Shown here piece by piece: positions 1 to 64,000 of a stretch of 64,000 nt of DNA (the stretch's first letter is position 1; each line of letters starts with the position of its first letter). The DNA lies in the NCBI GenBank assembly GCA_017506865.1, contig JAFCMP010000368.1, forward strand, positions 682,001 through 746,000, read 5' to 3'. The notes below the pieces were generated by a model, which had not been told where the DNA came from, searched no databases, and worked only from the letters and a program-made list of their open reading frames with translations. Made by a program: the position numbers and the translations under genes. Source of the DNA: Tribonema minus (Eukaryota > Sar > Xanthophyceae > Tribonematales > Tribonemataceae).

Positions 1-902
1 TTAGGGCTAGCGATTGGGGTGTATCAGCAGCGCGATGCGGGCCGTGGTGAGTGCGAGCTGCATCTACCCTCATTTTTGCCGGGTGCAGGATTGAAGTTGA
101 GGTGGAGGCTAGAATTGGAAGAAGAATTGTTGGGCATGTTGCAATCACAGAAGCGTGCGGTGGGGCAGCAAGCTCAATAGCGTCCGTGTTCGAAGTTATG
201 TGCGTCTGTACTCAAGTGCTCGCTGGCGGTCAGGGTTAGGGTTAGGGTTGGGATTAAAAAATCCTACTCCCCACAACACACCCCAGAAGGGCAAGCAAAT
301 TGAGATCTATTGCACTTGTCCGTCATCGCCCTGCAGTTTGCTCTGTAGAATCAAAAGCATCGTTCACATTGACATCTTCACAACCATCGCATTACAACGA
401 TTTGGTAGGTTCTGCTTGATACAAAACGATGCGAAACGTGCACATGAAACAGAACACAGAGACCTCTCAACCCCCCCCCCCCCGCCGTGATTCCCTGTTG
501 TCACTACAGCAGAATTTATAGCGCACGAAACGAATTGTAGTGGCTCATGCTCCCCCTCTCCCCCCCTCCCCTTTCCCCCAGATGCCCTAAGGACAAGTTC
601 GGCGCCGACAACAGCAGCTTCGTCTTCACCTCCACCGCAGATTGCAGTGTCTCACGCCCCACATCGTATACCCGCCCCCCCCTCTCCCCCCCACTGCATA
701 TAGCAGTGACTAATTGCCCCCCCCCCCCCGTTCTCCTCCCGTCCCCCCCCCCAAATCCCTCCATAATGACTTTGGCGTCGGCAACAGCAGCTACGTCCTT
801 CACCTCCACCGCACATTGCAATGTCCCATTCCTAGCCTCTTACCCCCCCCCCCCCCCCCCCCCCCTCCGCTCCCCGTGCCCCCCCCCCCAAATATTCCCC
901 CA
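1..902. other. 5' flank of the MYB gene with C-runs and two earlier copies of the exon 1 start
   Basis: No separate gene is recognised here. A short TTAGGG tract lies at 236-250 and long C-runs at about 471-482, 717-729 and 844-864. Two degenerate copies of the sequence that opens MYB exon 1 (motif GCGTCGGCAACAGCAGC) lie near 599-660 and 765-830. Each follows a C-rich tract like the one before position 903. These tracts resemble polypyrimidine tracts followed by AG, so exon 1 may be an internal exon whose true first exon lies off the left edge. Confidence 0.5.
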
Positions 903-904
903 GA

Positions 905-12535
<11,631 letters not shown>

Positions 12536-43100: not shown

Positions 43101-43421
43101 CACGGCAGCACTAAGACTTCACTGCGCGCAGGAGATGAATGTCGGCAGCCAGTGTTCGTTGAATTGCAAATACATAGCAGGGCATACACTTGTAGAGGTC
43201 GCTCAAGGATTTTCATGGGCAATGATGCAAAGATCTTGCCCGCTAATCACGAAGTGGCAGCCTCAAACCGTACCAGTGCTCATGGAATCACCTGATCGGC
43301 GGGGGTTGCTGCCGCTGACGTGCCATTTTCCTTGGCGCCCTGCTTGCCAGGACGGTCATCAGTCCACTCTGAGCGATATGGCGGCGGCAGTTGAGCATCA
43401 CCAATCATCATCAGCAGCAGC

Positions 43422-43461
<40 letters not shown>

Positions 43462-52400: not shown

Positions 52401-53488
52401 CCTCAGTGACCACCTGCAGCACCACCGCGCAGCGGGGCCGCTTCGCTCTAGAAGGTATGTACGTATACTATCCGATCATGTTCATGTAACAAACCATACC
52501 CACATGCTTCACAGTACACGCATGAAAACGTATTGATTCGGTGCACATAGGTACTTTGATTGATTCTCGCTCAGGGCGCGAAAAAGCCCAGATGATTGGC
52601 ATCTAGCTGTACGGAATCTACATGGTCGTATATGTACTACAAGTATATACTTGAGTATGTGCACTGCCTGTGCGTATGAAGACTGCATTGAAGCTTTACA
52701 TACCTCTTCAGCGACCGTCAGCATCACCACGGCGCACGACAGGGCGGGGCCGCCGCGCTGTAGCAGGTCCATCTGGCATGGCGTACACAAATTTAACAAC
52801 CAACAATAAACTTCAACATTGAAGTACCACATACCTCCTCAGCGACAGTCTGCAGCGCCACGACGCACGACAAAGCGGGGCCGCCGCGCTCCAGCACGTA
52901 CATCCACTATCCGGTATACATACATACCTACCATACATGAAAGCATACCGACACATATTACAGGTACATGTTCGAGTACGAGTTTGTATTAAGAGAGTAT
53001 CAGACTTGACTTGCCTCCTCAGCGACCGTCTGCAGCACCACGACGCACGACAGGGCGGGGCCGCCGCGCTCCAGCAGGTATGTACGTATACTACCCGATA
53101 TACAGCTATACATACCTGCATGCATGCTGCAAAGCATACTGACAGTATACGCAGTCTACCGCAGAAGTACTGAAAATACACACTTCTACTTGAGTATGTG
53201 TACGTGTAAGTATGAATACTTTATGAAGTACTTTTAAGTAATTCAAATGTCAATGGACTGAATTAGCATGTGTACGTGTATGTATGGAGACTTGATCGAT
53301 ACTGAAGACCATTCTTACAATGTCTTTTATAAGACTCTGCTCACCTCCTCAGCGACCGTCTGCAGCACCACGACGCATGACAGAGCAGGGCCGCCGCGAT
53401 CCAGCAGGTCCATCTGATTGAGCACCACGTTCGTGTCCAGCACCAGAAGCTGCTTCATAGCGGACTCCGACGCAAGCCGCGCCATGTC
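15986..53488 (-). CDS. DIS3: DIS3/RRP44 exosome exoribonuclease and endonuclease, 33 exons (5' end incomplete)
   Basis: Thirty-three exons join with consistent phases into 2,856 nt (951 residues plus TAA), close to the usual length of DIS3 without its extreme N-terminus. Order on the minus strand: PIN endonuclease domain (exons 1-5) with the expected acidic residues in VLDTNVVL, TVAEEV, NDRNDRAIR and LLTNDRAN; cold-shock domains (exons 6-13); RNB exonuclease domain (exons 14-30) with the catalytic motif DPPGCKDIDDALH intact and HFTSPIRRYADVLVHR; S1 domain (exons 31-33). The protein degrades RNA 3' to 5' as the catalytic subunit of the nuclear and cytoplasmic exosome. The N-terminal Cys-rich segment seen in other DIS3 proteins was not found, so upstream exons may exist above 53488. 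Introns average about 1.1 kb and carry echoes of adjacent exons. Confidence 0.96.
16310..16630 (-). repeat. Two echoes of DIS3 exon 33 acceptor and 5' part
   Basis: Copies at about 16318-16385 and 16572-16626 keep the T-rich tract, CGGCAG and GCCATCAGGGCGGACAGTG-like exon sequence. Each is followed by a GTAAAC not present in the real exon. Confidence 0.88.
17080..17270 (-). repeat. Two echoes of DIS3 exon 32 3' end
   Basis: CACCTTCGTCAAACACTCGA (17219) and CACCTCTGTCAAACACTCGA (17089) on the plus strand copy the FDK end of exon 32 and its donor. Confidence 0.9.
17349..17457 (-). CDS. DIS3: DIS3 exon 32: S1 domain
   Basis: GCGCAG acceptor, donor GTGACA; 109 bp, phase 0 to 1. Encodes IYLPSPDTLIHDADAQRV and VQVFDK. 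Confidence 0.92.
17558..17765 (-). repeat. Two echoes of DIS3 exon 32 acceptor and 5' part
   Basis: Copies near 17575-17640 and 17700-17762 contain the reverse complement of the acceptor and about 40 bases of exon (plus-strand words GGGTAGGTATATCTGCGCGC, GTGGGTACATCTACGCGTGC). Confidence 0.88.
18160..18750 (-). repeat. Four echoes of DIS3 exon 31 3' end with donors
   Basis: Copies near 18170-18222, 18345-18395, 18515-18560 and 18660-18750 match GATGCCGAAGCGCGGCACCA and CAGAACCGTGA on the plus strand. The longest and nearest (18660-18750) extends about 85 bp into the exon. Confidence 0.92.
18827..18957 (-). CDS. DIS3: DIS3 exon 31: RNB-S1 junction
   Basis: CTTCAG acceptor, donor GTGAGT; 131 bp, starts in phase 1, ends in phase 0. 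Encodes RASVAMHTVLYFKLNPTEEE and KITVLVPRFGIEGT, the conserved linker and first S1 strands. Confidence 0.95.
19050..19240 (-). repeat. Echo of DIS3 exon 31 5' half
   Basis: The plus-strand stretch 19130-19215 (AGGCCTCCTCCTCCGTAGGG, GATGCCCTCC) copies about 80 bases of exon 31 plus its acceptor at high identity. A weaker remnant lies near 19050-19100. Confidence 0.9.
19720..19850. repeat. TTAGGG/CCCTAA-type tracts in DIS3 intron 30
   Basis: TTAGGG-type units at 19728-19770 and CCCTAACCCTAGCC at 19832-19850 in opposite orientation. Confidence 0.85.
20345..20402 (-). repeat. Echo of DIS3 exon 30 3' end
   Basis: Plus-strand ACTTGCCTGCAAGCTGCGCA repeats the exon end and its GC donor, and continues into CTCTGTGCC. 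Confidence 0.9.
20467..20527 (-). CDS. DIS3: DIS3 exon 30: end of RNB domain, GC donor
   Basis: Encodes GYLHDLMDNLNRRHRAAQLA, matching the conserved NLNxRHRxAQ helix. Starts in phase 0, 61 bp, ends in phase 1. The donor is GCAAGT rather than GT. The phase 1 end joins exon 31 to restore GRASV, which supports a GC-AG intron. A copy near 20345-20400 has the same GC. Confidence 0.9.
20810..21036 (-). repeat. Two echoes of DIS3 exon 29 3' end
   Basis: 20815-20875 (TCACCTTGTCCATGAGCGCC) and 20992-21035 (a weaker version) copy the MDK end and donor of exon 29. Confidence 0.9.
21168..21258 (-). CDS. DIS3: DIS3 exon 29: RNB active-site region
   Basis: CTGCAG acceptor, donor GTGAGC; 91 bp, starts in phase 2, ends in phase 0. 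Encodes PIRRYADVLVHRLLGAAIG. The Arg-rich PIRRYAD motif is characteristic of RNB nucleases. Confidence 0.96.
21310..21685 (-). repeat. Three echoes of DIS3 exon 29 acceptor and 5' part
   Basis: 21318-21395 is the longest (CCTAGCAGGCGGTGCATGAC). 21485-21525 and 21625-21680 keep only GCGCCGAATGGGGCTGCA-like sequence. Preservation falls with distance from the exon. Confidence 0.92.
21960..22565 (-). repeat. Five echoes of DIS3 exon 28 3' end with donors
   Basis: Units near 21965-22015, 22190-22245, 22290-22345, 22410-22465 and 22508-22560 share GCGCATACGTGAGAGGCTGC, CACCTGGTGAAGTGCGTATA and flanks including ACTACGTAACTA. They copy the THFT end, the GTGCGC donor and about 80 bases of intron. Confidence 0.93.
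22651..22703 (-). CDS. DIS3: DIS3 exon 28: RNB domain
   Basis: AATAG acceptor, donor GTGCGC; 53 bp, starts in phase 0, ends in phase 2. Encodes EEWHHYGLAAPIYTHFT, and its last two bases form Ser with exon 29 (HFTSPIRR). Confidence 0.95.
23565..23780 (-). repeat. Two echoes of DIS3 exon 27 3' end
   Basis: Around 23590-23645 and 23722-23775 the plus strand reads GGAGCAGAAGTACTGCGCAG and GTACTGCGTGGGCGTCATGT. These copy the AQYFCSGQKP end with about 100 bp of intron (CCATCTACACTCGCATTGTT). Confidence 0.92.
23838..23906 (-). CDS. DIS3: DIS3 exon 27: RNB domain
   Basis: GCGCAG acceptor, donor GTGCGC; 69 bp, phase 0 to 0. Encodes ILRICATRCMTPAQYFCSGQ. Confidence 0.94.
24425..24485 (-). repeat. 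Echo of DIS3 exon 26 3' end
   Basis: Plus strand CTTGTTGAAGTAGGGGTGTC and GCGCACTCCTCTGT copy the DPYFNK end of exon 26. Confidence 0.85.
24806..24925 (-). CDS. DIS3: DIS3 exon 26: RNB domain
   Basis: CTGCAG acceptor, donor GTACGC; 120 bp, phase 0 to 0. Encodes FDGFLASVKAVGFDLEVDDS and LADSLDRAERADDPYFNK, the conserved stretch before the RNB core helices. Confidence 0.95.
25075..25480 (-). repeat. Three echoes of DIS3 exon 26 acceptor and 5' part
   Basis: Copies near 25095-25145, 25203-25240 and 25395-25475 share plus-strand GACGCCAGAAAGCCGTCAAA and CTGCAGCAAAG. Confidence 0.9.
25860..25922 (-). repeat. Echo of DIS3 exon 25 3' end
   Basis: Plus strand CTGCCTCATGTGCTGGTGTG and GGGATGCCTCCGCAGCAC copy the end and donor of exon 25. 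Confidence 0.9.
26009..26063 (-). CDS. DIS3: DIS3 exon 25: RNB domain
   Basis: CCTCAG acceptor, donor GTGAGG; 55 bp, starts in phase 2, ends in phase 0. Encodes HFPTLSVLRRHPAPSRQQ; LLRRHP is the family signature. Confidence 0.93.
26250..26408 (-). mobile_element. Dispersed element of about 160 bp, copy B
   Basis: Inverted relative to copy A. From the right it reads GAATCAAAGATCGTAGAGCTCTAGG... through CCATATCCACAGTAGG to AAGACTTCTGTG. Confidence 0.8.
26698..26860. repeat. CCCTAA-type tracts plus an exon 24 echo
   Basis: Degenerate CCCTAACCCTAATCTC units run from 26700 to 26755 and near 26825-26850. Between them, 26772-26805 (GGTTGATATTGGCCAACAG) resembles exon 24 sequence. A second exon 24 echo is at 26930-26955. 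Confidence 0.75.
27218..27282 (-). CDS. DIS3: DIS3 exon 24: RNB domain
   Basis: CGACAG acceptor, donor GTGAGC; 65 bp, starts in phase 0, ends in phase 2. Encodes ANALVEEFMLLANITVGKKI, the conserved LVEEFMLLAN motif. Confidence 0.96.
28467..28532 (-). CDS. DIS3: DIS3 exon 23: RNB domain
   Basis: CTGCAG acceptor, donor GTGAGC; 66 bp, phase 0 to 0. Encodes VRFVLDSESQNPTDVQMYAL. Confidence 0.94.
28600..28860 (-). repeat. Two echoes of DIS3 exon 23 acceptor and 5' part
   Basis: 28805-28855 (GTCCAGCACAAAGCGCACTT) is long. 28603-28635 keeps only CGCACCTGCAGT and the following intron bases. Confidence 0.9.
29105..29330 (-). repeat. Three echoes of DIS3 exon 22 3' end
   Basis: Near 29115-29142, 29193-29222 and 29270-29322 the plus strand repeats GTCAGCGCTCCGGCGTCAAG and CTCCGGTGACG, with TACTCACTCACTCA-type intron sequence between. 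Confidence 0.92.
29347..29437 (-). CDS. DIS3: DIS3 exon 22: RNB domain
   Basis: GTACAG acceptor, donor GTGAGT; 91 bp, starts in phase 2, ends in phase 0. Encodes VRQLNKLAKIFRKRRLDAG and ALTLASPE, a near-invariant DIS3 motif. Confidence 0.97.
29774..29820. repeat. CCCTAA-type tract
   Basis: CCCTAGCCCTAACCCTATCC and following units in DIS3 intron 21. Confidence 0.85.
30150..30645 (-). repeat. Three echoes of DIS3 exon 21 3' end
   Basis: Copies at 30160-30185, 30405-30432 and 30602-30632 read GCACCTGACGTCAGTCATGT or close variants on the plus strand, carrying the GTGCGT donor. Confidence 0.93.
30735..30829 (-). CDS. DIS3: DIS3 exon 21: RNB domain
   Basis: CCGCAG acceptor, donor GTGCGT; 95 bp, starts in phase 0, ends in phase 2. 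Encodes VDFFKSIIHSIASLTYNEAQ and MMIDDPNMTDV. Confidence 0.96.
31190..31265. repeat. CCCTAA-type tract
   Basis: Degenerate ACCCTGACCCTAATGCTCAC-like units in DIS3 intron 20. TTAGGG repeats in the opposite orientation lie at 31749-31770. Confidence 0.85.
31455..31665 (-). repeat. Two weak echoes of DIS3 exon 20 3' end
   Basis: CATACATACATACCTCATAT (31466) and CACACACACCTCATAGACC (31635) resemble the exon 20 end with its GTATGTATGT donor. A separate pair of related stretches (31540-31620, 31787-31870; GACGTTGCCA, AAGACTC) also repeats here. Confidence 0.65.
31933..31984 (-). CDS. DIS3: DIS3 exon 20: RNB domain
   Basis: CTGCAG acceptor, donor GTATGT; 52 bp, starts in phase 2, ends in phase 0. 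Encodes FAFTVLWEITPEGEIVE, the conserved (R)FAFSVxWE strand. Confidence 0.94.
32400..32450 (-). repeat. Echo of DIS3 exon 19 3' end
   Basis: Plus strand GCTCAGCGCACCTGTCCTCG at 32416 is identical to 32791-32810 at the exon end. Confidence 0.92.
32802..32847 (-). CDS. DIS3: DIS3 exon 19: RNB domain, 46 bp exon
   Basis: CTGCAG acceptor, donor GTGCGC; starts in phase 1, ends in phase 2. Encodes LLTETLCSLRGGED. Family consensus has Leu-Gly-Thr-Asp before LCSL, so LLTETLCSL is a mild variant. It is the smallest exon found. Confidence 0.93.
33180..33400 (-). repeat. Echoes of DIS3 exon 18 3' end
   Basis: Near 33275-33335 the plus strand reads GGGGATACATACATACCTGG with CAGCACGTCCAG. A weaker CGTCCAGCACCGGCATC lies at 33190. 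A variant GGTATACATACATACATATG is at 33380. Confidence 0.88.
33446..33503 (-). CDS. DIS3: DIS3 exon 18: RNB domain
   Basis: CTGCAG acceptor, donor GTATGT; 58 bp, starts in phase 0, ends in phase 1. Encodes AANRSTSTYLVERRLDMLP, matching RGTSVYLVDRRIDMLP of the family. Confidence 0.95.
33750..34265 (-). repeat. Four to five echoes of DIS3 exon 17 3' end with TCATGATCATGA palindromes
   Basis: Copies near 33870-33900, 33970-34015, 34082-34125 and 34180-34225 read GGTCCATGGCGCTGCCGGGC on the plus strand. Between them lies a repeated AT-rich stretch with TCATGATCATGAA-type palindromes (33925-33960, 34034-34050, 34135-34165, 34232-34262). Confidence 0.92.
34298..34360 (-). CDS. DIS3: DIS3 exon 17: RNB domain
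   Basis: CTGCAG acceptor, donor GTGCGC; 63 bp, phase 0 to 0. Encodes VGVHIADVTHFVQPGSAMD, the GVHIADVxHFV signature. Confidence 0.97.
34470..34665 (-). repeat. Echoes of the DIS3 exon 17 acceptor and upstream intron
   Basis: CCCGACCTGCAGCGTGC (34482) and TTTGACCTGCGGGGCGCGCA (34576) copy the exon start and acceptor. TGTGGTGATGCTCAGCGC repeats about seven times between 34385 and 34655. Confidence 0.88.
34820..35250 (-). repeat. Array of about seven to nine echoes of DIS3 exon 16 3' end
   Basis: The plus strand repeats CAACTTTTGTGCCGTTGCC and TCAATGTTGCCGTTGGGCAG at intervals of about 60-90 bp, matching the exon end, GTAATGGCAC donor region and TTGAAGT. The copies near 34917, 35025, 35130 and 35210 are clearest. 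Confidence 0.93.
35253..35306. repeat. CCCTAA-type tract
   Basis: TAACCCTAACCGTAACCCTA units in DIS3 intron 16, splitting the exon 16 echo array from the exon itself. Confidence 0.9.
35426..35554 (-). CDS. DIS3: DIS3 exon 16: RNB catalytic motif
   Basis: GCGCAG acceptor, donor GTAATG; 129 bp, phase 0 to 0. Encodes RRDMRHVPALSIDPPGCKDI then DDALHARPLPNGNIE. All four catalytic aspartates of the DPPGCxDIDDALH motif are present. Confidence 0.98.
35640..36010 (-). repeat. Five to six echoes of DIS3 exon 15 3' end
   Basis: Plus-strand words GGTATACCTGCCAATCCAC (35652), GTATATCTGCCAGTCCAAA (35806), GGTATACCCGCCAGTCCACG (35834) and ATACCTGCCAGTCCACGGGG (35965) copy PVDWQ with its GTATACC donor. ACTCATGATGGACTCCACAG repeats between them. 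Confidence 0.93.
36089..36169 (-). CDS. DIS3: DIS3 exon 15: region between cold-shock and RNB domains
   Basis: GTCAG acceptor, donor GTATAC; 81 bp, phase 0 to 0. Encodes VILLEHDIPHDAFSGKVLAC then LPPVDWQ, matching LLEHDVxxxxFSxxVLxCLP. Confidence 0.95.
37085..37155 (-). repeat. Echo of DIS3 exon 14 3' end
   Basis: Plus strand CATACCTCCGTCTCGGTGGA followed by CTTGTCGCCAGAGCTGCC repeats 37340-37378 almost exactly. Confidence 0.95.
37345..37408 (-). CDS. DIS3: DIS3 exon 14
   Basis: CGCAG acceptor, donor GTATGT; 64 bp, starts in phase 2, ends in phase 0. Encodes FPLGHYLRTLGSSGDKSTET, the conserved (R)YPxGHxVRxLG. Confidence 0.95.
37585..38090 (-). repeat. Four echoes of DIS3 exon 13 3' end and TGAATGAA microsatellite
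   Basis: Copies near 37590-37650, 37700-37790, 37853-37905 and 38015-38085 share CACGAGTTRRTGGACACGAT, CACTGCCTTCC and GGCAGTTGG. (TGAA)n/(GAATGAATG) sequence lies between them and continues to about 38130. Confidence 0.93.
38167..38258 (-). CDS. DIS3: DIS3 exon 13: second cold-shock domain
   Basis: GTGCAG acceptor, donor GTACGT; 92 bp, starts in phase 0, ends in phase 2. Encodes IPKVRIQTRQRSALEGKRII and VSIDSWPANC. Confidence 0.96.
38325..38900 (-). repeat. Four to five echoes of DIS3 exon 13 acceptor and 5' part
   Basis: Copies near 38330-38356, 38435-38462, 38466-38490, 38577-38602 and 38865-38895 read TATGCGAACCTTCAGGATCT, GCGAGTCTTCGGAATCTGC and similar on the plus strand. Confidence 0.9.
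39327..39374 (-). CDS. DIS3: DIS3 exon 12: cold-shock domain
   Basis: GTGCAG acceptor, donor GTGAGC; 48 bp, phase 0 to 0. Encodes ANGRTSSALLVPVDRK, matching the VxLFVPVDRRIPKIRI stretch when joined to exon 13. Confidence 0.92.
39960..40660. repeat. 700 bp of degenerate CCCTAA-derived sequence with one long tandem copy
   Basis: Most of this stretch is CCCTAA variants (CCCTAGCCCTAG, CCCTGACC, CTTAACCC). ACCCCACACCAAGCCCTAGT and ATGATTCCCTGGTTCACCTT occur twice, about 110 bp apart (40013-40075 and 40122-40185). Confidence 0.9.
40670..40759 (-). CDS. DIS3: DIS3 exon 11: cold-shock domain
   Basis: ATGCAG acceptor, donor GTGAGT; 90 bp, phase 0 to 0. Encodes RGRVVGVIRRNWRQYCGSL, matching GxVVGIIxRNWRxYxG of DIS3. 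Confidence 0.95.
40765..41185 (-). repeat. G-rich repeats and echoes of the exon 11 upstream intron
   Basis: CATTGCCGAGAAACATCAGG occurs at 40762 and 40953. GGAGGTATGAG-like words, GACAATAT words and G-runs at 40795-40810, 41048-41075 and 41134-41155 recur with about 70-190 bp spacing. Confidence 0.75.
41187..41320 (+). mobile_element. Dispersed element of about 160 bp, copy C
   Basis: GAAAACGAATCAAAAGATCG through GTGACAAGGCATGG, AAGTGCCTTCCACCAATGAC and GGCCACGAGTC to CACCATATCC. The right-hand ACTTCT end seen in copies A and G is absent. Confidence 0.8.
41645..42290 (-). repeat. Four to five echoes of DIS3 exon 10 3' end with donors
   Basis: Copies near 41672-41735, 41848-41905, 41985-42050 and 42150-42215 share CTCACATTGGCTGCCACTTT and GGTGCCTTCCAGATCTTCAA on the plus strand, plus about 100 bp of intron (GAGGTCTGGAACAAGCTAAC). 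Confidence 0.94.
42326..42418 (-). CDS. DIS3: DIS3 exon 10: acidic linker
   Basis: TTGCAG acceptor, donor GTGAGA; 93 bp, phase 0 to 0. Encodes EDSEEQKNLVPDITAPQAVE and VKVAAN. This is the variable linker between cold-shock segments. Confidence 0.88.
42865..42935 (-). repeat. Echo of DIS3 exon 9 3' end
   Basis: Plus strand GAGTCACCTGATCGGCCGGG and GTGACGTGCCACTTTCTTGG copy exon 9 and its donor. Confidence 0.92.
43292..43368 (-). CDS. DIS3: DIS3 exon 9
   Basis: GCTCAG acceptor, donor GTGATT; 77 bp, starts in phase 1, ends in phase 0. Encodes WTDDRPGKQGAKENGTSAAA, following LLPxxEW of the first cold-shock domain. Confidence 0.88.
43408..43465. repeat. (CAG)n microsatellite in DIS3 intron 8
   Basis: About 18 CAG units with one CGG interruption, 40 bp upstream of exon 9 in transcript order, where the RNA sense is (CUG)n. 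Confidence 0.95.
44215..44268 (-). mobile_element. Dispersed element of about 160 bp, copy D (truncated)
   Basis: Only one end is present: TTGTCACCTAGAGCTCTACG and ATCTTTTGATTCGTTTCCAT, inverted relative to copy A. Confidence 0.75.
44335..45055 (-). repeat. Echoes of DIS3 exon 8 on both sides
   Basis: Downstream in transcript order: ACCTTGCGGCGGCAGCATTC at 44342. Upstream: GCGCACATATACCGCAATGC with CTCCTGCTCCTGCGCTCG at 44818-44855, and ACCTGTACCGCGATGCGCTC at 45021-45055. AGTGTACTTCAAGC also occurs twice at 44730-44780. The real exon lies inside this span. Confidence 0.9.
44510..44606 (-). CDS. DIS3: DIS3 exon 8: first cold-shock domain
   Basis: GCGCAG acceptor, donor GTGCGT; 97 bp, starts in phase 0, ends in phase 1. 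Encodes EQERIAVYVRGPEHVNRAVD and GDVVAIEMLPPQ, the conserved (N)RAxxGDxVxxELLP. Confidence 0.94.
45230..45302 (-). CDS. DIS3: DIS3 exon 7: first cold-shock domain
   Basis: CTACAG acceptor, donor GTAGTG; 73 bp, starts in phase 2, ends in phase 0. Encodes LFQGTLRVERSNWTECYVIV, matching (Y)xQGxLRVxRxNxxEGxV. Confidence 0.95.
45850..45990 (-). repeat. Echoes of DIS3 exon 6 3' end
   Basis: 45919-45992 (ACATACCTGCCCGACTTGAT) repeats the exon end and donor over about 70 bp at high identity. A shorter one lies at 45850-45875. Confidence 0.93.
46063..46217 (-). CDS. DIS3: DIS3 exon 6: PIN-to-cold-shock junction
   Basis: GATCAG acceptor, donor GTATGT; 155 bp, starts in phase 0, ends in phase 2. Begins with a lineage-specific acidic/Gly stretch (DLLAAEAVDVEVEGGGG), then YPPHLPMSELTAGIKSGR, the conserved (F)xxHLxxxxxxxGIKSGxY motif. 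Confidence 0.95.
46310..46895 (-). repeat. Four echoes of DIS3 exon 6 5' half with upstream intron
   Basis: Copies near 46305-46430, 46480-46600, 46605-46700 and 46800-46895 share GCCGCCTTCAACTTCAACAT, CGAGCAGGTCCTGATCACAA and GGGAAG with AGCATGTCGCGACTTGTGAG. The first is nearly identical over 150 bp; the last is very decayed. Confidence 0.94.
47501..47585 (-). CDS. DIS3: DIS3 exon 5: end of PIN domain
   Basis: CTTCAG acceptor, donor GTGTGT; 85 bp, starts in phase 2, ends in phase 0. Encodes RIALGADITAMSIHKFIRDV then SDKYPDLQ. Confidence 0.93.
47740..48060 (-). repeat. Three to four echoes of DIS3 exon 5 acceptor and 5' part
   Basis: 47748-47778, 47842-47892 and 47950-48000 share GGCGGTGATGTCCGCGCCCA, GCGCAATGCGCTCAAGGGAG and AGTCACAGG on the plus strand. 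A remnant lies near 48040. CCCTAA units follow at 48093-48135. Confidence 0.93.
48794..48868 (-). CDS. DIS3: DIS3 exon 4: PIN domain, metal-binding Asp
   Basis: GCCAG acceptor, donor GTGATG; 75 bp, starts and ends in phase 2. Encodes LKRQVDDGGEGDVGVVLL then TNDRAN; the Asp in LLTND is a PIN active-site residue. Confidence 0.94.
49005..49365 (-). repeat. Three echoes of DIS3 exon 4 5' half with upstream intron
   Basis: Copies near 49012-49080, 49140-49190 and 49305-49365 share CCTCGCCGCCGTCGTTGACC, TGCCGCTTGAGCC and CAACAAGGCACCT. Shorter remnants continue to 49560. Confidence 0.92.
49820..50730 (-). repeat. Echoes of DIS3 exon 3 and a tandem intron unit
   Basis: Exon 3 copies lie near 49825-49865 (weak), 50055-50130 and 50543-50615 (GGTACGCACCACTGCGCAGA with CACCCTTATGGCTCGGTCG). 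Between them a unit of about 80 bp with ACATGACAGTACAG, GTACTGC and CGCTCGTCAGTG repeats about eight times. Confidence 0.93.
50832..50905 (-). CDS. DIS3: DIS3 exon 3: PIN domain NDRNDRAIR motif
   Basis: TTGCAG acceptor, donor GTGCGT; 74 bp, starts in phase 0, ends in phase 2. Encodes HRPGESPNDRNDRAIRVSAQ, the most conserved PIN segment of DIS3 with its catalytic Asp. Confidence 0.97.
51260..51955 (-). repeat. Array of seven echoes of DIS3 exon 2 3' end with donors
   Basis: Copies near 51267-51305, 51342-51402, 51449-51512, 51555-51620, 51650-51722, 51765-51835 and 51871-51945 repeat GTGACTCACCTCGCAGTGAT, GCTCGTTGGCGAAGAAGATG and CGCGCGACTCGTCCATCAGC. They repeat about every 75-115 bp with AACTTCAAC-type spacers. 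The furthest copies are shortest and most altered. Confidence 0.97.
51993..52091 (-). CDS. DIS3: DIS3 exon 2: PIN domain
   Basis: CTTCAG acceptor, donor GTGCGT; 99 bp, phase 0 to 0. Encodes VRHNNLALYRRLRQLLMDES then FIFFANEHHCE, matching FxVFxNExH of DIS3. Confidence 0.96.
52240..52390 (-). repeat. Two echoes of DIS3 exon 2 acceptor and 5' part
   Basis: 52249-52285 and 52345-52392 share CGCCGGTACAGCGCCAGGTT and GTTGTGGCGCACCTGCAGG. Confidence 0.94.
52400..53085 (-). repeat. Four echoes of DIS3 exon 1 3' part
   Basis: Copies near 52400-52445, 52703-52775, 52831-52905 and 53016-53080 share CCTCCTCAGCGACCGTCTGC, AGCACCACGACGCACGACAG and GGCGGGGCCGCCGCGCTCCA. ATGTACGTATACTA-like intron sequence lies between. 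Confidence 0.95.
53345..53488 (-). CDS. DIS3: DIS3 exon 1 as found: start of PIN domain
   Basis: GACAG acceptor at 53489-53493, donor GTGAGC; 144 bp, ends in phase 0. Encodes MARLASESAMKQLLVLDTNV then VLNQMDLLDRGGPALSCVVV and LQTVAEE, with the PIN Asp (LDTN) and Glu (AEEV across the junction). An in-frame ATG follows GAC. Other DIS3 proteins have 60-80 residues before this point, so an upstream exon is likely. Confidence 0.93.
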
Positions 53489-53624
53489 CTGTCAGTATTT
53501 ATGGTTAGGGTAAAGGTGAGGCATGTGCGCTTAGGATCAGGGATGGACAGCACAGACATCAAAGCTTATACCAACCCTAACGTATCGAAATAATAGCCTT
53601 TGATTTATAGGCCTCAACAGAGGG

Positions 53625-54097
53625 CTACCCTTCATGGCGGACTCCGACGCGAGCCGCGCCATGTTTTGGCAGTAAGTAGGGTTAGGGCAAGGGTATGGGT
53701 GAGGCGCGGGCACTTGAGGTTAGGGTTAGGCAGTGATGAGGCTTAGGGCAAGGGTGAGACAAGGGCGCTCAGGATCAGAGATGGGCACCAGGGAAAGACT
53801 GAAAGCCTGCATTTACCAACCAACTCTGGTGTTGATCCTAGCCTATGATTCATAGGCCTCAACAGAAGGCTATCTGTCATGGCGGACTCCGACGCCAGCC
53901 GCGCCATGTCCTGCCAGCAACTAGGGTTAGGGCAAGGGTGAGACGTGGGCGCAGGGATGGGCACCAAGGGTTGGGAATATGAGCCTAGCCTTAACCCTAA
54001 TCCCAATCTAACCCTAAGCTTAACTGGCTTTCGCCCAAACCCCAGCCCCTCACTCTACAATGGCGGACTCCACTGCGAGCCACGTCGTGCACTGCCT
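53625..54097 (-). repeat. Three echoes of DIS3 exon 1 acceptor and 5' part
   Basis: Copies at 53632-53672, 53877-53917 and 54059-54098 read TCATGGCGGACTCCGACGCG and AGCCGCGCCATG with a CTGNCAG-type acceptor in the first two. TTAGGG-type sequence lies between. Confidence 0.94.
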
Positions 54098-54099
54098 GC

Positions 54100-56990
54100 G
54101 CAGTGGTGGACTCAGCCTCCTCCGATGTTGAAACACGGGGCTTTTCGGCCCGCAAGAGGCCTGCTGCACCACCCCCTACAGGCCTAGTTCAACATGAAGT
54201 TGAAGTTGGGAAGGAGAAGTCAAGTAAGTCAGTGTCAGTTCGACTCCAAGTTGAAGTTCGTCATACAGTGCGTGCACCGCGCTCTCAAGGCGCTGCTGCA
54301 CAGTGCTGCACAGTCAACATCTGTGTGCTGTGCGAGCGCAGAGTCCAAGCAGCGCACGTAAGGAGAGGGTGTGTCTTGAACGTTTGTAGAAATGCAACAA
54401 CAAAAAAGCAATGAATACATTCACAACATTGCGTCATACAGTGAATCTCGAGGCGTCCGGCCCACAGGGGGCCAGGAGACGCCCCACCACCATGCAAGCG
54501 TGATCAAGTGTGATCGTTGTTAAAGTGCAGGCAAGGCAGGTGACAGTCCTACTTGTCAGTGCTCAGCGAGCCCTAAGCGCAGGTTACCACAACAGGCAGG
54601 TGGGACAAAGAAAAATACCGCCAACCCGAAAACCTTGTCTTGCACAGTGCGACTGACACAGGTCCAGGGCCGTCAGCATGAGGCTCAGCATAAGACCGTG
54701 AGCACGAGGCTCAGCATAAGACCACTGACTCCTCAGCGCTGAGAGCTCTCAACGACGCAGCATGATGTGTACCAGGCATCGGCATTGCTTCAGACTGGTG
54801 AAAAAACATACTGCGGGTGTTTGATTGGTTGCAAAGAAGTGTGGCAGAGCAAGACTGCAAGAAATCAGCCTGACTTGGTGTCATGGCAGGCGGTGGAGCT
54901 TTACAATCTGCATGTGATTCACCGCGGTCACTCACACGGGATGTCATTCATGTGAGCCATGACGTTTCAACATACCTACTTCGTGGAAACGATTCAAAGA
55001 TTGTAAAATTTGAAGTGAAATGGCGCGGTCAGCCGGCAGTGCCTTCCACCAAGAACCGTGGTTGTTCTGCTGCAGCAATATGCCACGAGTCAAACACCCA
55101 CTTCCTACTACTCCTTATTTGAACCCTAACCATGCCTTCAGGCTTGCCTCACGAGTATGGCACGCTGATGATCCATCGGCCAGATTCTACAATTCATGTA
55201 GTATAGCTGTGCGTCGCATCACTTCACAGCAATCAGCATTATGGGGTAGTCCGGCCTCTGTGCTCGCTGCGCGCATTAGTTATCAAGTACTTGAAGTTGT
55301 GGTGGATCTGAAATGTAACCTCAGCAGTTTTTTGCAGACACTGCCTGCTTGTGCGCCTTCAATCGTCGTGCCATTTCTTATTTGTTGGTCTTCAGCAATG
55401 TGTCAAGAGCTGCCGGGTTTAGAAAATGCCCTTCGCTGTTGCATAACTCCATGCACCGAATGCACAAAGCTCATGCTGGAATGACAAAAATACAAGGCCT
55501 AAACACCAATGAAACCTGCATACGCCATAGGTGGTTTGACGTTGACCGGCAAAATGATTCATTGCCTAGAAAGGGCCTTGACTTGATGAGTGGATGGCTA
55601 CAGTTGGACTGTAACAGTCCCCTCAGAGCATCATTCACCACATGACAGTGGCACTACTGCAATTGATGCCGCCTGGCTGTTTGCAAAATCAGGTATCGCT
55701 TGCACCAGCTCCACGTCAAAAGTACACATGTGTGCTAAAGATGTCACTCACTTGAGCAGTGAGCTCCTTTCCCGCCAGCGTGCCGCACGCGATATCGTCC
55801 CTGAGGTAGTGGTCATTGACGATGTGCAGCACTTTGCCCCGCCTGGTCCTCTTGAAGAATGCCTTGTTCCTGTGCATATTGCTCGCTGCTCCCTCGAAAC
55901 ACTAAAGTCAAGATGTGTTGCACCCGGCAAAGCTCCAGCAAGCCTCCTCTCTCCTGCGTCCTTCGTCGAGCACCGTGTATGTTTCGCAGGTGTTCCGGCC
56001 GCAGATTTGCTGTTGCTGACGCAACGGATTGGTCTAATCCCTGATCCTTGATGTATCCGCTCCGCTGCCTGTATCAGTAGATCGATGGTCTGGACCACGC
56101 AGCAAGGATTGATTATGGGGAACATCAAGTTTAACTTCAACTTCACTCCCAAACTTCAACTTCACCACGTTTGAGGGCACGCGCTTTTCATGTGACCTGG
56201 AGCTGAATTTTGCATGCTGCCGCTGCCATGGGTGCCTTTTGCTTGATGCGCAAGCTCAATTCTTTCGAGGGTACACAGTTTCACTGGCCGGTACTACCAT
56301 CGTAGTTTTTTGCAAGCTCTACGATTCTGTTGGACATTTAAATGAATGAGCTCCCTTCAAGTCAGACGTTCCTGCTTGCATGGGCATCGGTAGTTTCTAA
56401 GCCCCCGGCTGGAATGACAGCCTGCCACTTGAGACTGCCGACACCTGCAGCTATTAGCGCCTGCTTGCATCACCTCATCTACGATGCCAGCCTCCCTCGC
56501 CGCTCGTCAAAACTGCAGTGGTTGTCATTGGGACACACTTTCAGACTGTCACACGACATGTAGATTCCGTGCAGCACTGCAAGGTGAGATACCATTCATC
56601 TGGGCTTTTTCACGCTCTGAGCGAGAATCAATAAAAAGTACACTTTCAAGGTGTTTGTTTACGATATGTGTGTGTAGATTCTGGTTGCAAGTCCATGGAC
56701 ATCCAGATGGATGTCCATCATCTGGGCTGTTTCCCGCCTGACCGAGCACGAATAAGAAGCACATCAGATGAGTTGCGCGCACTGCAAGCCAGACATTGCA
56801 TCCCCGGAGCGGCTGCTCTGAGAAAGAAGCAGGTCCTCCAGAATCTCCCACAGTCGCTCGCGCGCTGTTGCTGTATTGCAAAGGTCAGTTCTACTTGGAG
56901 TGCAGACACACAGTCACTCACGACAGCTGTGTGCTGTACAGACGGAGGTTAAGGTATTGATCTGCTGTAGTCGCCGTTGGCAAGTTGTCA
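54100..56990. other. Repeat-poor interval without a recognised gene
   Basis: Apart from a decayed copy of the dispersed element at 54985-55095, this stretch lacks the echo and CCCTAA pattern of its surroundings. Open frames on the plus strand at 55020-55484 and 55590-56051 read like protein (VPEVVVIDDVQHFAPPGP, LSPASFVEHRVCFAGVPA). A frame at 56342-56563 (MNELPSSQTFLLAWASVV) is similar. I recognise no domain. They could be exons of an unknown gene or the remains of a transposon. Confidence 0.4.
54985..55097 (+). mobile_element. Dispersed element of about 160 bp, copy E (decayed)
   Basis: CGATTCAAAGATTGTAAAAT, CGGCAGTGCCTTCCACCAAG, AACCGTGGTTGTTCTGCTGC and GCCACGAGTCAAACA match copies A and C with many changes. 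Confidence 0.7.
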
Positions 56991-57059: not shown

Positions 57060-57194
57060 GGTGGATACGGTGGTGCTGTTTGACTCGTGGCCACTTGCTG
57101 CAGCAGCGGCGACCACGGTTGTTGGTGGAAGGCACTTGCGGCTGACTATCCCTTGTCACCTAGAGCTCTACGATCTTCTGATTCGTTTTCATAA
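57060..57194 (-). mobile_element. Dispersed element of about 160 bp, copy F
   Basis: Inverted copy from GGATACGGTGGTGCTGTTTG through CTTGTCACCTAGAGCTCTAC to GATTCGTTTTCAT. Confidence 0.8.
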
Positions 57195-59000: not shown

Positions 59001-59049
<49 letters not shown>

Positions 59050-59372
59050 GCAGCAGCAGCAGCAGCCGCAGCGGCGGCAGCAGCAGCAGCAGCACAGCAG
59101 CATATGAGTGGACTCTGGGATGCAACAGCATTGCTGCAGCAACCTATGTCCGTGCGCGTGCTGACGCACCGCAGCAGTGCCAAATAAAGGACCTGAAGAT
59201 TTTATGGGGGGGGGGGGGGTGAGCCCCTTTTCGGTGACAATACGGGGAATTTGAGGTTCCTGCAGCTAGCTGTACAATACGCTCAAGGGCACCAACCCCC
59301 TTGGCACCATATGTTGTGCCAACAATACGTGCTCAATGCTGCTGTTTTTGCTAATTCTAACCCTTCTTACAG
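58108..59372. other. Interval upstream of ADAT2 with a (CAG)n run, no gene assigned
   Basis: The first ADAT2 exon should lie here or just upstream but was not identified. A (CAG)n run lies at 59003-59097, a G-run at 59205-59218 and a C-run at 58493-58503. Short frames at 58259-58477 and 58423-58725 are not recognised. Confidence 0.4.
59003..59097 (+). repeat. (CAG)n microsatellite
   Basis: About 30 CAG units with CGG interruptions. It lies in a frame that would read poly-Gln, but no supporting exon was found. Confidence 0.95.
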
Positions 59373-59466
59373 GCGGAGGCGGCGCTGCAAGCAGGAGAGG
59401 TGCCGGTGGGGTGCGTGATAGTGCGGTCTGCGGGGGAGGATGCGCATACATCACCGGACCACAGAG
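59373..59466 (+). CDS. ADAT2: ADAT2 exon: EVPVGCVIV core strand
   Basis: TTACAG acceptor, donor GTGAGA; 94 bp, starts in phase 0, ends in phase 1. Its 3' third (GEDAHTSPDHR) is not in other ADAT2 proteins. Confidence 0.9.
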
Positions 59467-62400
59467 GTGAGATTAGCGGTACATAAGGTGGTATCGTAGC
59501 CAAAGTAAAGGCTGATGAAAGCTACTAAAGGGGTGTTAGGGGTAGTGCTAGGATGCGCGTACATGACCGCAGCGAGCAGAGGTACGTGGTAGGATGGTAT
59601 CGTAGCCAGAGGGTAGGGTTTGGCAACATCAACCATCATAATGCCATAGCGCGGTTGGCGGGGGAGGATGCGCATACATCACCAGACCAAAATGGTGAGA
59701 GCGGAGGTGCATTGTAAGCAAAGATGGTGGCGTACCCAGATTAAGAGATGAGTCAATGCTACACAAGGGGTGTTGGGGGTATTGTTAAAGGTTAGGCAAC
59801 AGCAATTCATTCAATGCGTCATAGTGCGGGCGGCGGGGGGCATCCACCGACAACAAATGTGAGAGCAGAGGTACGTGGTAGGATGGTATCGTAGCCAGAG
59901 GGTAGGGTTTGGCAACATCAACCATCATAATGCCATAGTGCGGTCGGCGGGGGAGGATGCGTATACATCACCAGAGCACAGAGGTGAGAGCAGATGTGCA
60001 TGTAGCAGTGATCGGCAATACGCATTGAGACACTTTCAAGGCGTTCAAAAGACACAGGTAGATTCTAATTGCAAGCTGGACGTCCACCATATGGGAAGTA
60101 CATGGTAGTAAAGATGGTGTCGTAGCCAAAACAAGAGCTGAATGAATGGCTACTAGTGGGGTGTTGGGGGTATCGTTAGGATGCGCATGCATCAACGGAC
60201 CACAGAGGTGAGAGCAGCGGCCCATGGTAACAAGTTCGTGTTGTAGCTTAAGCAACAGCCGAGTAAAGTGTTAGAGGGTGATAGGGGTATTGTCAGGGTT
60301 AGGCACCAGCAATCCCTTCAATGGTAATGAGGTCAGTTGTCATTGTGGGGGGGGTGCGCATACATCACCGGATCGCAGAGGTGAGAGCAGTAATAAATAT
60401 GGCATCGTATCTCTAGGTATGAGTTGAGTAAATGCCACCAAAGGGGTGTTAGGACTAGCTTTAGGATGCTCATACATCATCGAACCACAGAGTTGAGAGC
60501 AGAGGTACATGTAGCACAGATGGTGTCGTATTGGAAGTGAGAGTCGAGTGAAATGCTGACTCCTTGAGGGGTTTCAGGGGCATCGTTAGGACAGCAGATG
60601 TGAGCAGCAGAGGTTCATTGGTAGCGAAGATGGTGCTGAACAGTCATAGCAATGCCTGTGCTCGGACCGGAGTGCTATTGTGCTGTTCTGATGCAACAGC
60701 CATAACTTCAACAATACCCCAATGGTCCGCAACTGTACGCAGACATTGCCAGACCACTGCGGTGAGAATGAAAGTCCTTGTAAGTTGTTGGTGCCACACT
60801 TCAACATCAGCTTGCGCTCGCTTGAAGTGCGTCCTTGCCGATCTGGCTGTTGCAGCAGCCTCACCTCCATAAACACATTGGGCAACCACCCCCCATCAGA
60901 GCTTTGCGGATGGCCTGACTGCTACCTCTGCAATCTCTACAATACATGCAGTGCCATCGCTCAGTGGAGGCTGCCTCAATGTGACCCCAACCCTTCACTT
61001 TTTACGCCAACACGCGACATCGTTTTGGGGTTGGGATTGGATTAGGGCTGAAGTTAGGGTTGCAGTTGGGCTAGGGTTAGGGTCACGCAGCCCACGGGTG
61101 ACGGATCGACAGCACTGGCCCACAAAAACACTGTTCCCCTAAGTCATGACACGCACGCAGCACGATCGCCCTTGCCCTGGTGCCACGCCTTCACCTCAAC
61201 AGACACGTTGGGCACCCCCCCCGCACAATTTGTTAGCGAAATGGCTGATAGAAGCATGTATGCATGTTGTTCCGCACGCAGCGGAAGCGCCTCGAGGCGA
61301 GAAGGCAGCGGTTCACCTAACCCTAACCCTTAACTCCTGGCCCTAACCCTGTTTCTCGCGCAGCAGAAGCCCACAGCGATGAGGCGGTAGCGGTGGCTGC
61401 TGCCTTTGATTGGTGCCACAACTTCACCTCAATAGACACATCGGGCAACCCCCCACACAATGTTAGCGAAATGGCTGATAGAAGCATGTACGCTCGGGAC
61501 GAGGCGGCAGCGACGGCTTGACCCTCACCTAACCCTAACCCTAACTCCTGGCCCTAACCCTGTTACTCGCGCAGCAGCAGCGCTCGGCGATGAGGTGGTA
61601 GCGGCGATAGGCTATTTGATACTTCGAAGTACGTGCTTCAAGGTCCTTCCAGGTGTATCATATTCCCTAGCCTAGCCTGCTCCAGCGTGGCGAGCAAGTG
61701 AGCGGCCTACCAATGCAATCTTACGTGACATTTTGGCTGAAAACATAGAACAGATCACTTGCAGGTTAATCTAGCTTCATGTAACATGCCGCAATAACTG
61801 ACAGGGTATGTATGCATCCGCACGCAGCAGCAGCGCTCGGCGATCAGGTGGTAGCGGTGGGCCACAACGAGACCAACATGACGTGCAACGTGAGTGTGCA
61901 TCTGCTGAGCACTGCCTGCAATGTAGCCCTAACCCCAATTCTACCCCTGATTTTAGCCCTGCAACCAACATGAAGTGCAACGGCAGCGCGAACCGCTGAG
62001 CACGGCCTGCCGTTATGGTGTAGAAGCAATGAGAGCGATACGCCGTGCAGTTGCGAGTACTGACTTTGGATGACAGTACGTTATGCTGGTACGGTGTGCT
62101 GAGCGCTGTAACTTCATGTGTGACACTCCTGCAGGCGAATGAATGCGTTAATGAATGAATGAATGAATGAATGAGTGAATCAGTCGATTTCTTTTCTGAC
62201 GCGGCGCACATGCTGACACCTGTTGCCGTGACGCAGTCGTGAGGGCGCGAATGAACCATTGAATGAATAATTATATGGAAACGACTCAAAAGATTGTAGT
62301 AGTATATAACTTCAATTGACCTCTGACACTGGTGCGTATGTCAATGCCTTGGTACCGTGACGGCAGGCGACGCGGCACGCAGAGCTCGTGGCGATCGACC

Positions 62401-64000
62401 GCGCTCTCGCAGAAGGGAGGAGCGTCACAGGCTGTGAACTGTAAGTTGAAGTGTCACAGGCTGCCACTGTAAGCCGTTTGCTATCACGCGGGCAGGAGGA
62501 GTTAGGTTTGGGGTGGGTTGAGTGTGATGGTCAGGCATTGATCATTGCTTGCGTTTCTTGCAGTCACACAATTCTGTGATGCGCAAGGGTTGGGTTTGGG
62601 TTAGGATTAGGGTTGGTGTCAAGGGCAGGCATTGACCAGCCCAGCACTGCCTGTGACTGCGCTGCTATTTCTTGCTGCATACAACACAACTTTGTGATAC
62701 GCAAGGATTAGGGTTAGGTGCATGTGTATGGTAAGTGGCACTGACCATTGATGACGCTGTCTTTGACTCAAGTGCTATCCTCCCTGTATCACTACTGGTA
62801 GCCTGCGGCGCACCAATAGAGTTAGGGTTAGGGTTAGAGTTAGGCATTAGGGTCAGGCGTTGGCCACGCTCACCGGTGCCTTTGACTCCACTGTCACCCA
62901 CGAGTTTATGGGAAACGACTCAAAAGATCGTAGAGCTCCAGGTGACAAGGTGTGCTTAGCGGCCAGTGCCTTCCACCAATAATAATAACCGTGGTCGCTG
63001 CTGCAGCAGCAATTGGCCACGTGTCAAACAGTGCCACCATATCCGCAGGAGCCAAAATACTTCTGTGTGCGAGTGGTAATACTTTCAAGTACAACATAAG
63101 CATTCCTTGTTGCATGTATGTTGCCTCTGAGTCAATTGCGATCGCCCCCCGCGCGCCGCAGGTTTGTGACGTGTGAGCCGTTCATCCCTGAATCACATCA
63201 GATAATGGCAGTATAACATAAAGTTATAATACACAAGTACTTTGCTCCTGAGCGCTGCCTGTAACTTAATAGCGATTGCTCCCGTGCCGCAGGTTTGTGA
63301 CGTGTGAGCCGTGCATCATGTGCGCCGCGGCTCTCTCGCAGATGGGCATAGGTATGTATGTATGTATGCGTAGGGCATAGGTATGGAACAAAATGCGTTA
63401 TTGTATTTGTAGGGCATAGCTACGTAATTTTATCTGTGATGGCCGTGCTTGCAGATGCAATTTGGCTCAGTGAGGGGGATATTTGCGTTCAGATGCGTAA
63501 TGTGCGCCGCCGCTCTCTCGCAGATGGGCATTGATATGAAAAACGAATCAAAAGAAGTTGAGCTCTAGGTGACAAGGGATGGTTAGCCGCAAGTGCCTTC
63601 CACCAATAACCGTGGTCGCCGCTGCGGCAGTCATGGCTGCAGTCGTTGATATATAATCACGTACGGGTAGTGATTGGGCTAGCAGAAAGTGCAAACATTT
63701 ATGTTTGGCTTGAATGAGGGGAAAATTTACGGTCAGATGCATTGTTGCATTGCCAGTCTCTCACAAACTTTAATGGGCGAATGTAGGTACGCACTTCAAA
63801 AGTATATAATTGTAGGTTTAGGGTTTGAGTTAGCTAACCGTAACTCTAACCCTCATTCAACCCCGCTTATCTGCACTGCCACTTGCATCAACTTCTGGCA
63901 CATGCGTATAGCAGCGTGTAACCCTCGCCTCAAGGCCGTCTCTTGTAGCAATCAGAAGGGCCTGAATGAAGTAAAGTGCCTCTGCATTTTCCAGGCCAGC
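59373..64000 (+). CDS. ADAT2: ADAT2/TAD2 tRNA adenosine-34 deaminase catalytic subunit (partial, four exons)
   Basis: Four exons join in phase: 59373-59466, 61828-61889, 62367-62440 and 63293-63351. They encode AEAALQAGEVPVGCVIV, VVAVGHNETNMTCN, ATRHAELVAIDRALAEG and FVTCEPCIMCAAALSQMGI. HAE carries the catalytic Glu and zinc-binding His, and PCxxC binds the same zinc. NATRHAE and the EPCIMCAAAL context are typical of ADAT2, which with ADAT3 converts adenosine to inosine at the wobble position of tRNAs. The first exon and the last part (GxxN..FGGCG) are missing; the latter lies beyond the right edge. A TTTTCCAG acceptor at 63987-63994 may open the next exon. About 20 extra residues lie between VIV and VVAVGHN compared with the family. 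Confidence 0.92.
59560..60505 (+). repeat. Six echoes of the ADAT2 exon 3' end with donors
   Basis: Copies near 59568-59588, 59668-59705, 59945-59990, 60178-60215, 60350-60390 and 60467-60502 repeat GGATGCGCATACATCACCGG and ACCACAGAGGTGAGAGC. The intervening intron (GGGGTGTTAGGG, TGGTATCGTAGCC) repeats too. 59577-59650 and 59868-59945 are nearly identical over 75 bp. Confidence 0.95.
61265..61615 (+). repeat. Four echoes of the next ADAT2 exon's acceptor and 5' part
   Basis: Copies near 61276-61310, 61358-61400, 61488-61520 and 61570-61610 share CGCGCAGCAGCAGCGCTCGG and GATGAGGTGGTAGCGG, with CCCTAACCCTAACTCCTGGC before two of them. AAATGGCTGATAGAAGCATG occurs at 61239 and 61469. Confidence 0.94.
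61828..61889 (+). CDS. ADAT2: ADAT2 exon: GHNETN segment
   Basis: ACGCAG acceptor, donor GTGAGT; 62 bp, starts in phase 1, ends in phase 0. Encodes AALGDQVVAVGHNETNMTCN after the split Ala codon. Confidence 0.9.
62140..62180 (+). repeat. (GAAT)n microsatellite
   Basis: Ten GAAT units in the intron between the second and third ADAT2 exons. Confidence 0.95.
62367..62440 (+). CDS. ADAT2: ADAT2 exon: HAE catalytic motif
   Basis: CGGCAG acceptor, donor GTAAGT; 74 bp, starts in phase 0, ends in phase 2. Encodes ATRHAELVAIDRALAEGRSV then TGCE. The donor is immediately followed by TGAAGT. Confidence 0.93.
62446..62476 (+). repeat. Echo of the HAE exon 3' end with donor
   Basis: GTGTCACAGGCTGCCACTGT followed by AAGCCG copies the exon end and GTAAG donor 30 bp downstream, the shortest echo interval seen. 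Confidence 0.8.
62908..63075 (+). mobile_element. Dispersed element of about 160 bp, copy G
   Basis: Full-length: GGAAACGACTCAAAAGATCG through GTGACAAGG, AGTGCCTTCCACCAATAATA and GTGCCACCATATCCGCAGGA to ATACTTCTGTGTGCGAG. Confidence 0.85.
63158..63196 (+). repeat. Echo of the ADAT2 PCxxC exon acceptor and 5' part
   Basis: GCCGCAGGTTTGTGACGTGT and GAGCCGTTCATC repeat the real exon start at 63293 almost exactly, but the second Cys/Ile region is altered. Confidence 0.95.
63293..63351 (+). CDS. ADAT2: ADAT2 exon: PCxxC zinc motif
   Basis: GCCGCAG acceptor, donor GTATGT; 59 bp, starts in phase 2, ends in phase 1. Encodes FVTCEPCIMCAAALSQMGI. Confidence 0.96.
63500..63540 (+). repeat. Echo of the ADAT2 PCxxC exon 3' end
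   Basis: ATGTGCGCCGCCGCTCTCTC and GCAGATGGGCATTGATATG copy the exon end with a changed donor. Confidence 0.93.
63541..63640 (+). mobile_element. Dispersed element of about 160 bp, copy H (truncated)
   Basis: AAACGAATCAAAAGAAGTTG through GCAAGTGCCTTCCACCAATA and CCGTGGTCGCCGCTGCGGCA. It begins exactly at the end of the exon echo. Confidence 0.8.

Follow-up and report, generated by a model that had tools for sequence, protein, structure and literature searches.

Why do the introns of a gene carry decayed fragments of the very exons that they flank, and does the fixed arrangement of these fragments point to a special system? The question is raised by a 64,000-nt stretch of the Tribonema minus genome (Xanthophyceae; contig 368, JAFCMP010000368.1, bases 682001–746000, from an assembly of 158 Mb in 554 contigs), which we call the window and which has a G+C content of approximately 53%. 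In its central gene, DIS3/RRP44, and in other genes, many introns contain partial copies, here termed echoes, of the neighboring exon: acceptor and exon head in the upstream intron, exon tail and donor in the downstream intron. The original prediction took this polarity as the mark of an unusual system. We find that local direct duplications, together with selection and an over-representation of exon borders, probably explain the echoes.

DIS3, encoding an exosome 3′–5′ exonuclease, occupies approximately 40 kb of the minus strand (16312..55877). Its exons were predicted with a purpose-made spliced aligner, using a human DIS3 protein sequence as template. The output consisted of 51 pieces, of which 33 were retained as mapped exons (28–144 nt each, with introns of 534–2263 nt) and 18 (1–42 nt) were discarded, some of them being echoes that the aligner had mistaken for exons. 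One such piece, 25421–25450, had misled the aligner at exon 24806–24898, the true acceptor of which is at 24925, 27 nt off; the DIS3 echo statistics were computed with the uncorrected border, and the correction adds one head-upstream match. The protein assembled from the mapped exons has Pfam hits to RNB (E = 6e-103), OB_Dis3, and PIN_4, as well as matches to RRP44/DIS3 chains in the PDB (best E = 2e-255), and the splice consensus is CAG/GTGAG at donors and GCAG/G at acceptors (slash, exon border). The first and last exons and the stretch at 40.8–39.3 kb are provisional. Once short pieces are discarded, the frame breaks between exons 40670–40759 and 39327–39354, so that either one border is wrong or an 8-nt exon at 40293–40300 (minus strand) is real; this possible micro-exon would preserve the frame, but may be an alignment artefact.

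Probes of 36 nt from exon heads and tails were run against the adjoining introns, to a maximum of 1 kb and with a score of at least 30. Tail copies were found downstream of 21 of 32 DIS3 exons and head copies upstream of 11 of 32 (12 of 32 after the border correction); wrong-way copies were rare (heads downstream, 3/32; tails upstream, 1/32). At least one copy was detected for 25 of the 33 exons. The same probes produced no match in the nonadjacent introns of the gene (0/1984), and pseudo-exons placed within DIS3 introns showed no polarity (n = 452; 0.24, 0.19, 0.21, and 0.18 for the four classes of match). The 4 wrong-way matches among the 36 belong to exons starting at 46063, 42326, 26009, and 16312. 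In all four, the other exon end matched on the same side, and in two, which are 38 and 41 nt long, the two probes largely overlap, so that the assignment is weak there. Copies crossing the border, with at least 8 nt on each side, numbered 59 at 23 of 32 donors and 32 at 18 of 32 acceptors, and there were 14 noncrossing copies on each of the two sides besides. Because the crossing copies carry intron sequence on their far side, their origin lies at the DNA level and not in mRNA. Altogether, 47.9% of DIS3 exonic bases had an intronic homologue at 80% identity or more.

The same arrangement was observed outside DIS3. We sampled 25 regions of 10 kb (250 kb) from the genome, picked by position alone. 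Local pairs within 1.5 kb were direct in 225 cases and inverted in 17 (approximately 13:1), compared with 173 and 2 in the window. These pairs covered 10% of the sample and 35% of the window; two of the first 20 random regions reached 35% and 39%, and the density of the window is thus high but not unique. Exons in the sample were called by a splice-site and codon score trained on DIS3, which resulted in 80 calls, 73 of them testable; reversed-sequence decoys gave 24 calls, so that up to approximately one-third of the 80 may be false. Among the 73 predicted exons, heads were copied upstream in 11 and downstream in 0, and tails upstream in 2 and downstream in 17. One tail-upstream case (L028) is a whole-exon copy, and the other (L033, 391 nt), with matches on either side, is open to doubt. 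Echoes occurred in 24 of the 73 exons and in 10 of the 22 loci with tested exons; in the other 12 loci, where some calls are false and some loci have a single exon, none of the tested exons had one. The 21 testable decoy exons scored 3, 2, 0, and 3 (head-upstream, head-downstream, tail-upstream, and tail-downstream, respectively). Duplication is therefore common enough for even false exons to show some, and controls at pseudo-borders are needed. In 20 random loci, border-crossing copies lay on the right side of 25% of 63 donors and 19% of 62 acceptors, and on the wrong side of 1/60 donors and 0/59 acceptors. Local direct duplications covered 13.8% of the sequence within 600 nt of a predicted exon and 8.3% farther off; since duplication was also found away from predicted exons, it is not exon-specific. 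Border sequences were matched in pieces of other loci in 4 of 1220 comparisons.

Introns in DIS3 thus hold copies of the flanking exon borders with the polarity that the original prediction had described. Its estimate of about 30 affected exons in 46 agrees with our counts, but the total of 46 exons was not reproduced. That nearly every intron would carry such copies is an overstatement, all the more so for the genome at large (10 of 22 sample loci). Echoes are also patchier in the other genes of the window: of nine low-scoring plus-strand exon calls at 1–15 kb, five had no match of at least 30. The four matching calls comprise exon 4837–4993 (head upstream), exon 8713–8816 (tail downstream), exon 1670–1701 (head and tail downstream), and one call within a GGC run. 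Put to its own refutation test on the 250-kb sample, the original prediction survives: copies adjoin their own exon and are polarized there, though 12 of the 22 loci showed none.

Where the original prediction went too far was in taking uniform polarity as the distinguishing mark. If the protein must stay unchanged, then a spare tail with its donor can lie only downstream and a spare acceptor with its head only upstream. We simulated uniform duplication, deletion, and mutation, without any border preference, under the single requirement that the spliced exon remain unchanged; random tandem duplication then yielded right-way to wrong-way ratios of approximately 3–8:1; the observed ratios were 32:4 (DIS3) and 28:2 (sample). 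Judged by this model, polarity is no evidence for a special system, but it counts against dispersed insertion, by which tails would land upstream as well.

Decay of the echoes was different on the two sides of the border. On the exon side, donor copies diverged by a mean of 0.110 and acceptor copies by 0.120; on the intron side, the values were 0.172 and 0.179, respectively. The ratio of approximately 1.5 compares with 2 expected if constraint acted on the real exon only. Splice dinucleotides were retained in 48 of 59 donor copies (GT) and 23 of 32 acceptor copies (AG), near the values predicted from divergence. From these comparisons the decay appears neutral, with no sign of selection on the echoes. 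More than one-half of the GT-bearing echo donors (27 of 48, in 14 exons) equal or exceed the real donor in score, consistent with the original expectation of decoy splice sites in the introns. A stratigraphic order, with the nearest copy the youngest, was considered and rejected: the trend was weak and seen at donors only, the nearest copy being younger than the farthest at 16 of 26 donors and 6 of 15 acceptors.

Identical searches for copies, over 500 nt, were made at real borders and at pseudo-borders in intron interiors. DIS3 donors had 1.45 copies per site and acceptors 1.00, compared with 0.47 and 0.41 at interior pseudo-borders; the proportion of sites with a copy was 71% for donors and 58% for acceptors (68% and 51% after 15% mutation of the exon side), compared with 29% and 26%. 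Young copies, with less than 10% intron-side divergence, were present at 9 of 31 donors and 3 of 31 acceptors, compared with 23 of 478 and 20 of 480 pseudo-borders. At donors, the excess was approximately 6-fold below 10% divergence and 3-fold at 10–30%; at acceptors, it was approximately 2.3-fold and 2.5-fold. The 20 random loci gave 0.476 copies per donor and 0.258 per acceptor, compared with 0.144 and 0.141 in interiors (approximately 3.3-fold and 1.8-fold). Pure-intron probes showed an approximately twofold gradient from border to interior in a one-sided distance profile, and a shift test of DIS3 donors gave 49 observed versus 18.5. Seven simulated settings produced donor-to-interior ratios of 0.27–1.05, compared with approximately 3 observed. 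The border excess, approximately threefold at donors and 1.8-fold to 2.5-fold at acceptors, therefore exceeds the null of uniform duplication.

High GC content was tried as a cause of the excess and rejected: 60-mers outside exons were copied at frequencies of 0.071, 0.068, and 0.082 at GC 0.6, 0.5, and 0.4, respectively, and copying increased only at GC of 0.7 or more.

Echoes also resemble the functional border more than they resemble each other. The intron-side difference was 0.167 between echo and border and 0.246 between echo and echo, a hub pattern that held at 25 of 28 borders, although it is biased because the echoes were detected through their similarity to the border. Compared with pseudo-borders, the hub gap was still larger in DIS3 (mean 0.080, median 0.076, n = 17, versus mean 0.019, median 0.035, n = 131; P = 0.007, the observations not being independent). 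This would follow if borders keep re-seeding their echoes, or else if the adjoining intron sequence is under constraint.

The explanation that we favor is as follows. Short direct duplications, with offsets mostly of 100–600 bp, would recur across the genome and accumulate in introns, arising by a DNA route such as tandem duplication through replication slippage, microhomology-mediated repair, or unequal exchange. An event spanning a border would be tolerated only if the exon body keeps its own acceptor and donor; the spare tail and donor would then remain downstream, the spare acceptor and head upstream, and both would decay as intron sequence. Borders, donors above all, would be duplicated or preserved more often than the intron interior. 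The likeliest cause of this excess may be that the border is a fixed source, through repeated duplication or through gene conversion made one-way by selection; alternatively, constraint on the intron flanking the border may keep old pairs visible. Locality, direct orientation, polarity, neutral-looking decay, and border excess are all features of the data, and head-to-tail arrays are visible. Repeated local duplication across exon–intron borders with the intact exon retained, as originally proposed, agrees with these data, and intron growth by border duplication is plausible as a reading of the sequence.

Several observations weigh against this explanation. The simulation is crude, including no gene conversion and rejecting whole-exon copies. 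In the window, 25 of the 28 pairs with at least 90% identity lie more than 60 bp apart; in the 20 random loci, 24 of 27 do. In part, these are non-neighboring members of arrays: among 30 pairs of at least 92% identity, 17 contain shorter-offset repeats. The remaining 13, however, include 7 pairs separated by more than 60 bp, their flanks mostly unrelated, and only 3 adjacent pairs. Such spaced pairs imply that simple tandem duplication cannot account for all of them unless followed by loss, or that some copies are templated insertions. The shift test was not significant for DIS3 acceptors alone (22 versus 18.7) and was modest in the random loci (43 pairs versus 21.9, SD 6.5, shift maximum 50). 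The order of age with distance is weak (donors, P approximately 0.01–0.02; acceptors, none), and the pseudo-borders overlap along the sequence, which makes the P values optimistic.

A bolder form of the explanation, which we hold only tentatively, makes functional borders active sources that are preferentially duplicated or that convert their echoes, so that introns accrete copies outward, above all from donors. A competitor of the favored explanation is uniform local tandem duplication with deletion and purifying selection, the border excess reflecting nothing but the better visibility of exon-anchored pairs. Duplication away from predicted exons, the polarity that follows from selection, and the persistence of old pairs next to conserved exons all agree with such a process; nevertheless, the excess does not increase with age as visibility would demand, mutating 15% of the exon side barely lowers it, and no simulated setting, even with constraint included, approached the observed donor ratio. 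We therefore regard uniform duplication by itself as rather doubtful. Templated insertion during double-strand break repair (repair-mediated proximal duplication), by which short nearby pieces would be copied into introns, gains from the spacing of the high-identity pairs, including the 7 of 13 without inner repeats, and from a similarity in size and distance to the human class of Pace et al. 2009 (PMC2671141). It would be expected to leave tails upstream as well, yet downstream copies outnumber upstream copies 21:1 in DIS3 and 17:2 in the sample; the roughly 13 direct pairs per inverted pair and the clear head-to-tail arrays also argue against it, and as a general account it is unlikely.

The strength of many echo donors, and the apparent ability of certain whole-exon copies to be spliced, could suggest that echoes function as decoys or alternative exon ends under selection. 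Their exon side has decayed as if unconstrained, however, GT and AG have been lost at approximately the neutral rate, and 12 of the 22 loci with tested exons have no echoes, which makes a function improbable. Mis-assembly can duplicate repeats, but copies differ from their sources by approximately 11–12% on the exon side and 17–18% on the intron side, and echoes are present on other contigs; an assembly artefact is thus hardly credible. Introner or transposon-like elements bearing splice sites would likewise occur in many introns. Introners, however, disperse the same sequence across the introns of many genes, whereas the echoes adjoin their source, with no border match in the gene's other introns and very few in other loci, and for the echoes examined this origin is refuted.

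Comparison with known systems places the mechanism among partial duplications within genes. Exonize (PMC12343006) and Ivanov and Pervouchine (PMC9013439) likewise describe introns homologous to exons of the same gene, partial matches and degenerate exons among them. In a published survey of this kind, approximately 2% of exonic nucleotides in human and 0.08% in fly have a homologue with identity of 80% or higher; the 47.9% in DIS3 comes from one gene and another aligner and method, so that the comparison holds to an order of magnitude only. The available parts of these two reports describe no polarized multi-copy arrays, as found here, among partial, inter-boundary, or intronic exon duplications. 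In Pace et al. 2009, copies have a mean length of 162 bp, lie within 5 kb, and include intron splice sites; 824 events were counted across the human genome, and only 4 donors fell into the partial exon/intron class; pairs closer than 50 bp had been left out, and at least one exon copy was inverted. Here, dozens of copies per gene occur, direct and often arrayed. Partial exon duplication with one copy turning intronic is also described in a 2010 report (PMC2891723) and in the potato RdRp case (PMC4974935); as far as those accounts go, a new intron is created, whereas here exon fragments sit in existing introns. Bearing on mutually exclusive tandem exons, in which complete duplicates are used alternatively, are the 4 wrong-way matches among 36 in DIS3, each with the opposite exon end matched on its side. 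In the open-access literature that we searched, no genome with this density of polarized echoes was found, though one may be in print. The mechanism is of a known kind at extreme density; new would be the scale and, if confirmed on RNA-supported exons, the border bias.

Individual DIS3 exons (all on the minus strand) show the echoes in detail. At exon 51993–52091 (51244..52091), a tandem repeat finder showed tail and donor repeated seven times downstream with a unit of approximately 100–115 bp; closer tail copies are generally less decayed, and head copies lie immediately upstream, to 52394. Exon 42326–42363, with its acceptor and donor, has approximately four whole-exon echoes downstream at a period near 166 bp (41635..42412). 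Five downstream copies of exon 35426–35554 comprise its last ~21 nt, the donor, and the start of the intron (34832..35554), and exon 34298–34360 has two head copies upstream and three tail and donor copies downstream (33923..34640). Tail and donor copies of exon 29347–29437 are joined head-to-tail in the downstream intron (29122..29437). At exon 24806–24925, with the acceptor corrected, the acceptor and head copy initially taken as an exon lies approximately 525 bp upstream (24806..25475). Exon 22651–22703 is followed by five tail and donor copies in compound units of 98, 117, and 215 bp (21961..22703), and exon 21168–21258, which carries the RNB motif, has head and acceptor copies upstream and tail and donor copies downstream (20803..21688).

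On the plus strand, a MYB-like exon (4837–4993; Pfam Myb_DNA-binding) has decayed acceptor and head copies upstream in steps of approximately 130–140 bp (4297..4993). Exon 59373–59466, followed by approximately six tail and donor copies (59373..60530), and exon 63293–63351, which has a zinc-binding deaminase motif with head copies upstream and tail copies downstream, probably belong to one deaminase-like gene. The Pfam dCMP_cyt_deam_1 match is confined to the peptide of the latter exon; the former, judged by a motif, is probably the start of a tRNA-adenosine-deaminase-like gene. Between DIS3 and the deaminase-like gene lies a 196-codon open frame with Cys/His-rich stretches (57514–58101, minus strand).

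The window also contains other repeats. A dispersed repeat of approximately 130 bp, on both strands and 80–93% identical to the copy at 9010, occurs at eight places (9010–9140, 26279–26404, 41186–41313, 44209–44265, 54984–55092, 57062–57192, 62911–63042, and 63541–63630) and in 6 of 25 random loci, and looks like a small non-autonomous element. Degenerate telomere-like CCCTAA/TTAGGG runs are dotted across introns and intergenic DNA (e.g., 7955–8051, 10265–10334, 31191–31263, 35258–35303, 40082–40113, and 48090–48132). The GGC run at 1051–1462 (412 bp, 95% matches) is open in several frames and has similar tracts on many other contigs. A 330-bp unit is duplicated head-to-tail at 5617–6265 with 96% identity, among the youngest duplications in the window and off recognized exon borders. 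No tRNA and no Rfam family at the gathering cut-off was detected in the window.

The long introns of large genomes are usually ascribed to transposons. Here, short local duplication visibly contributes much of the gene and intron sequence, and, because conserved exons date and orient each event, intron turnover can be measured gene by gene. The load of strong decoy donors in transcripts also provides a natural setting in which to ask how the spliceosome chooses the correct site. Should functional borders indeed be active sources, introns would have a border-anchored way to grow that differs from transposons, introners, and uniform duplication.

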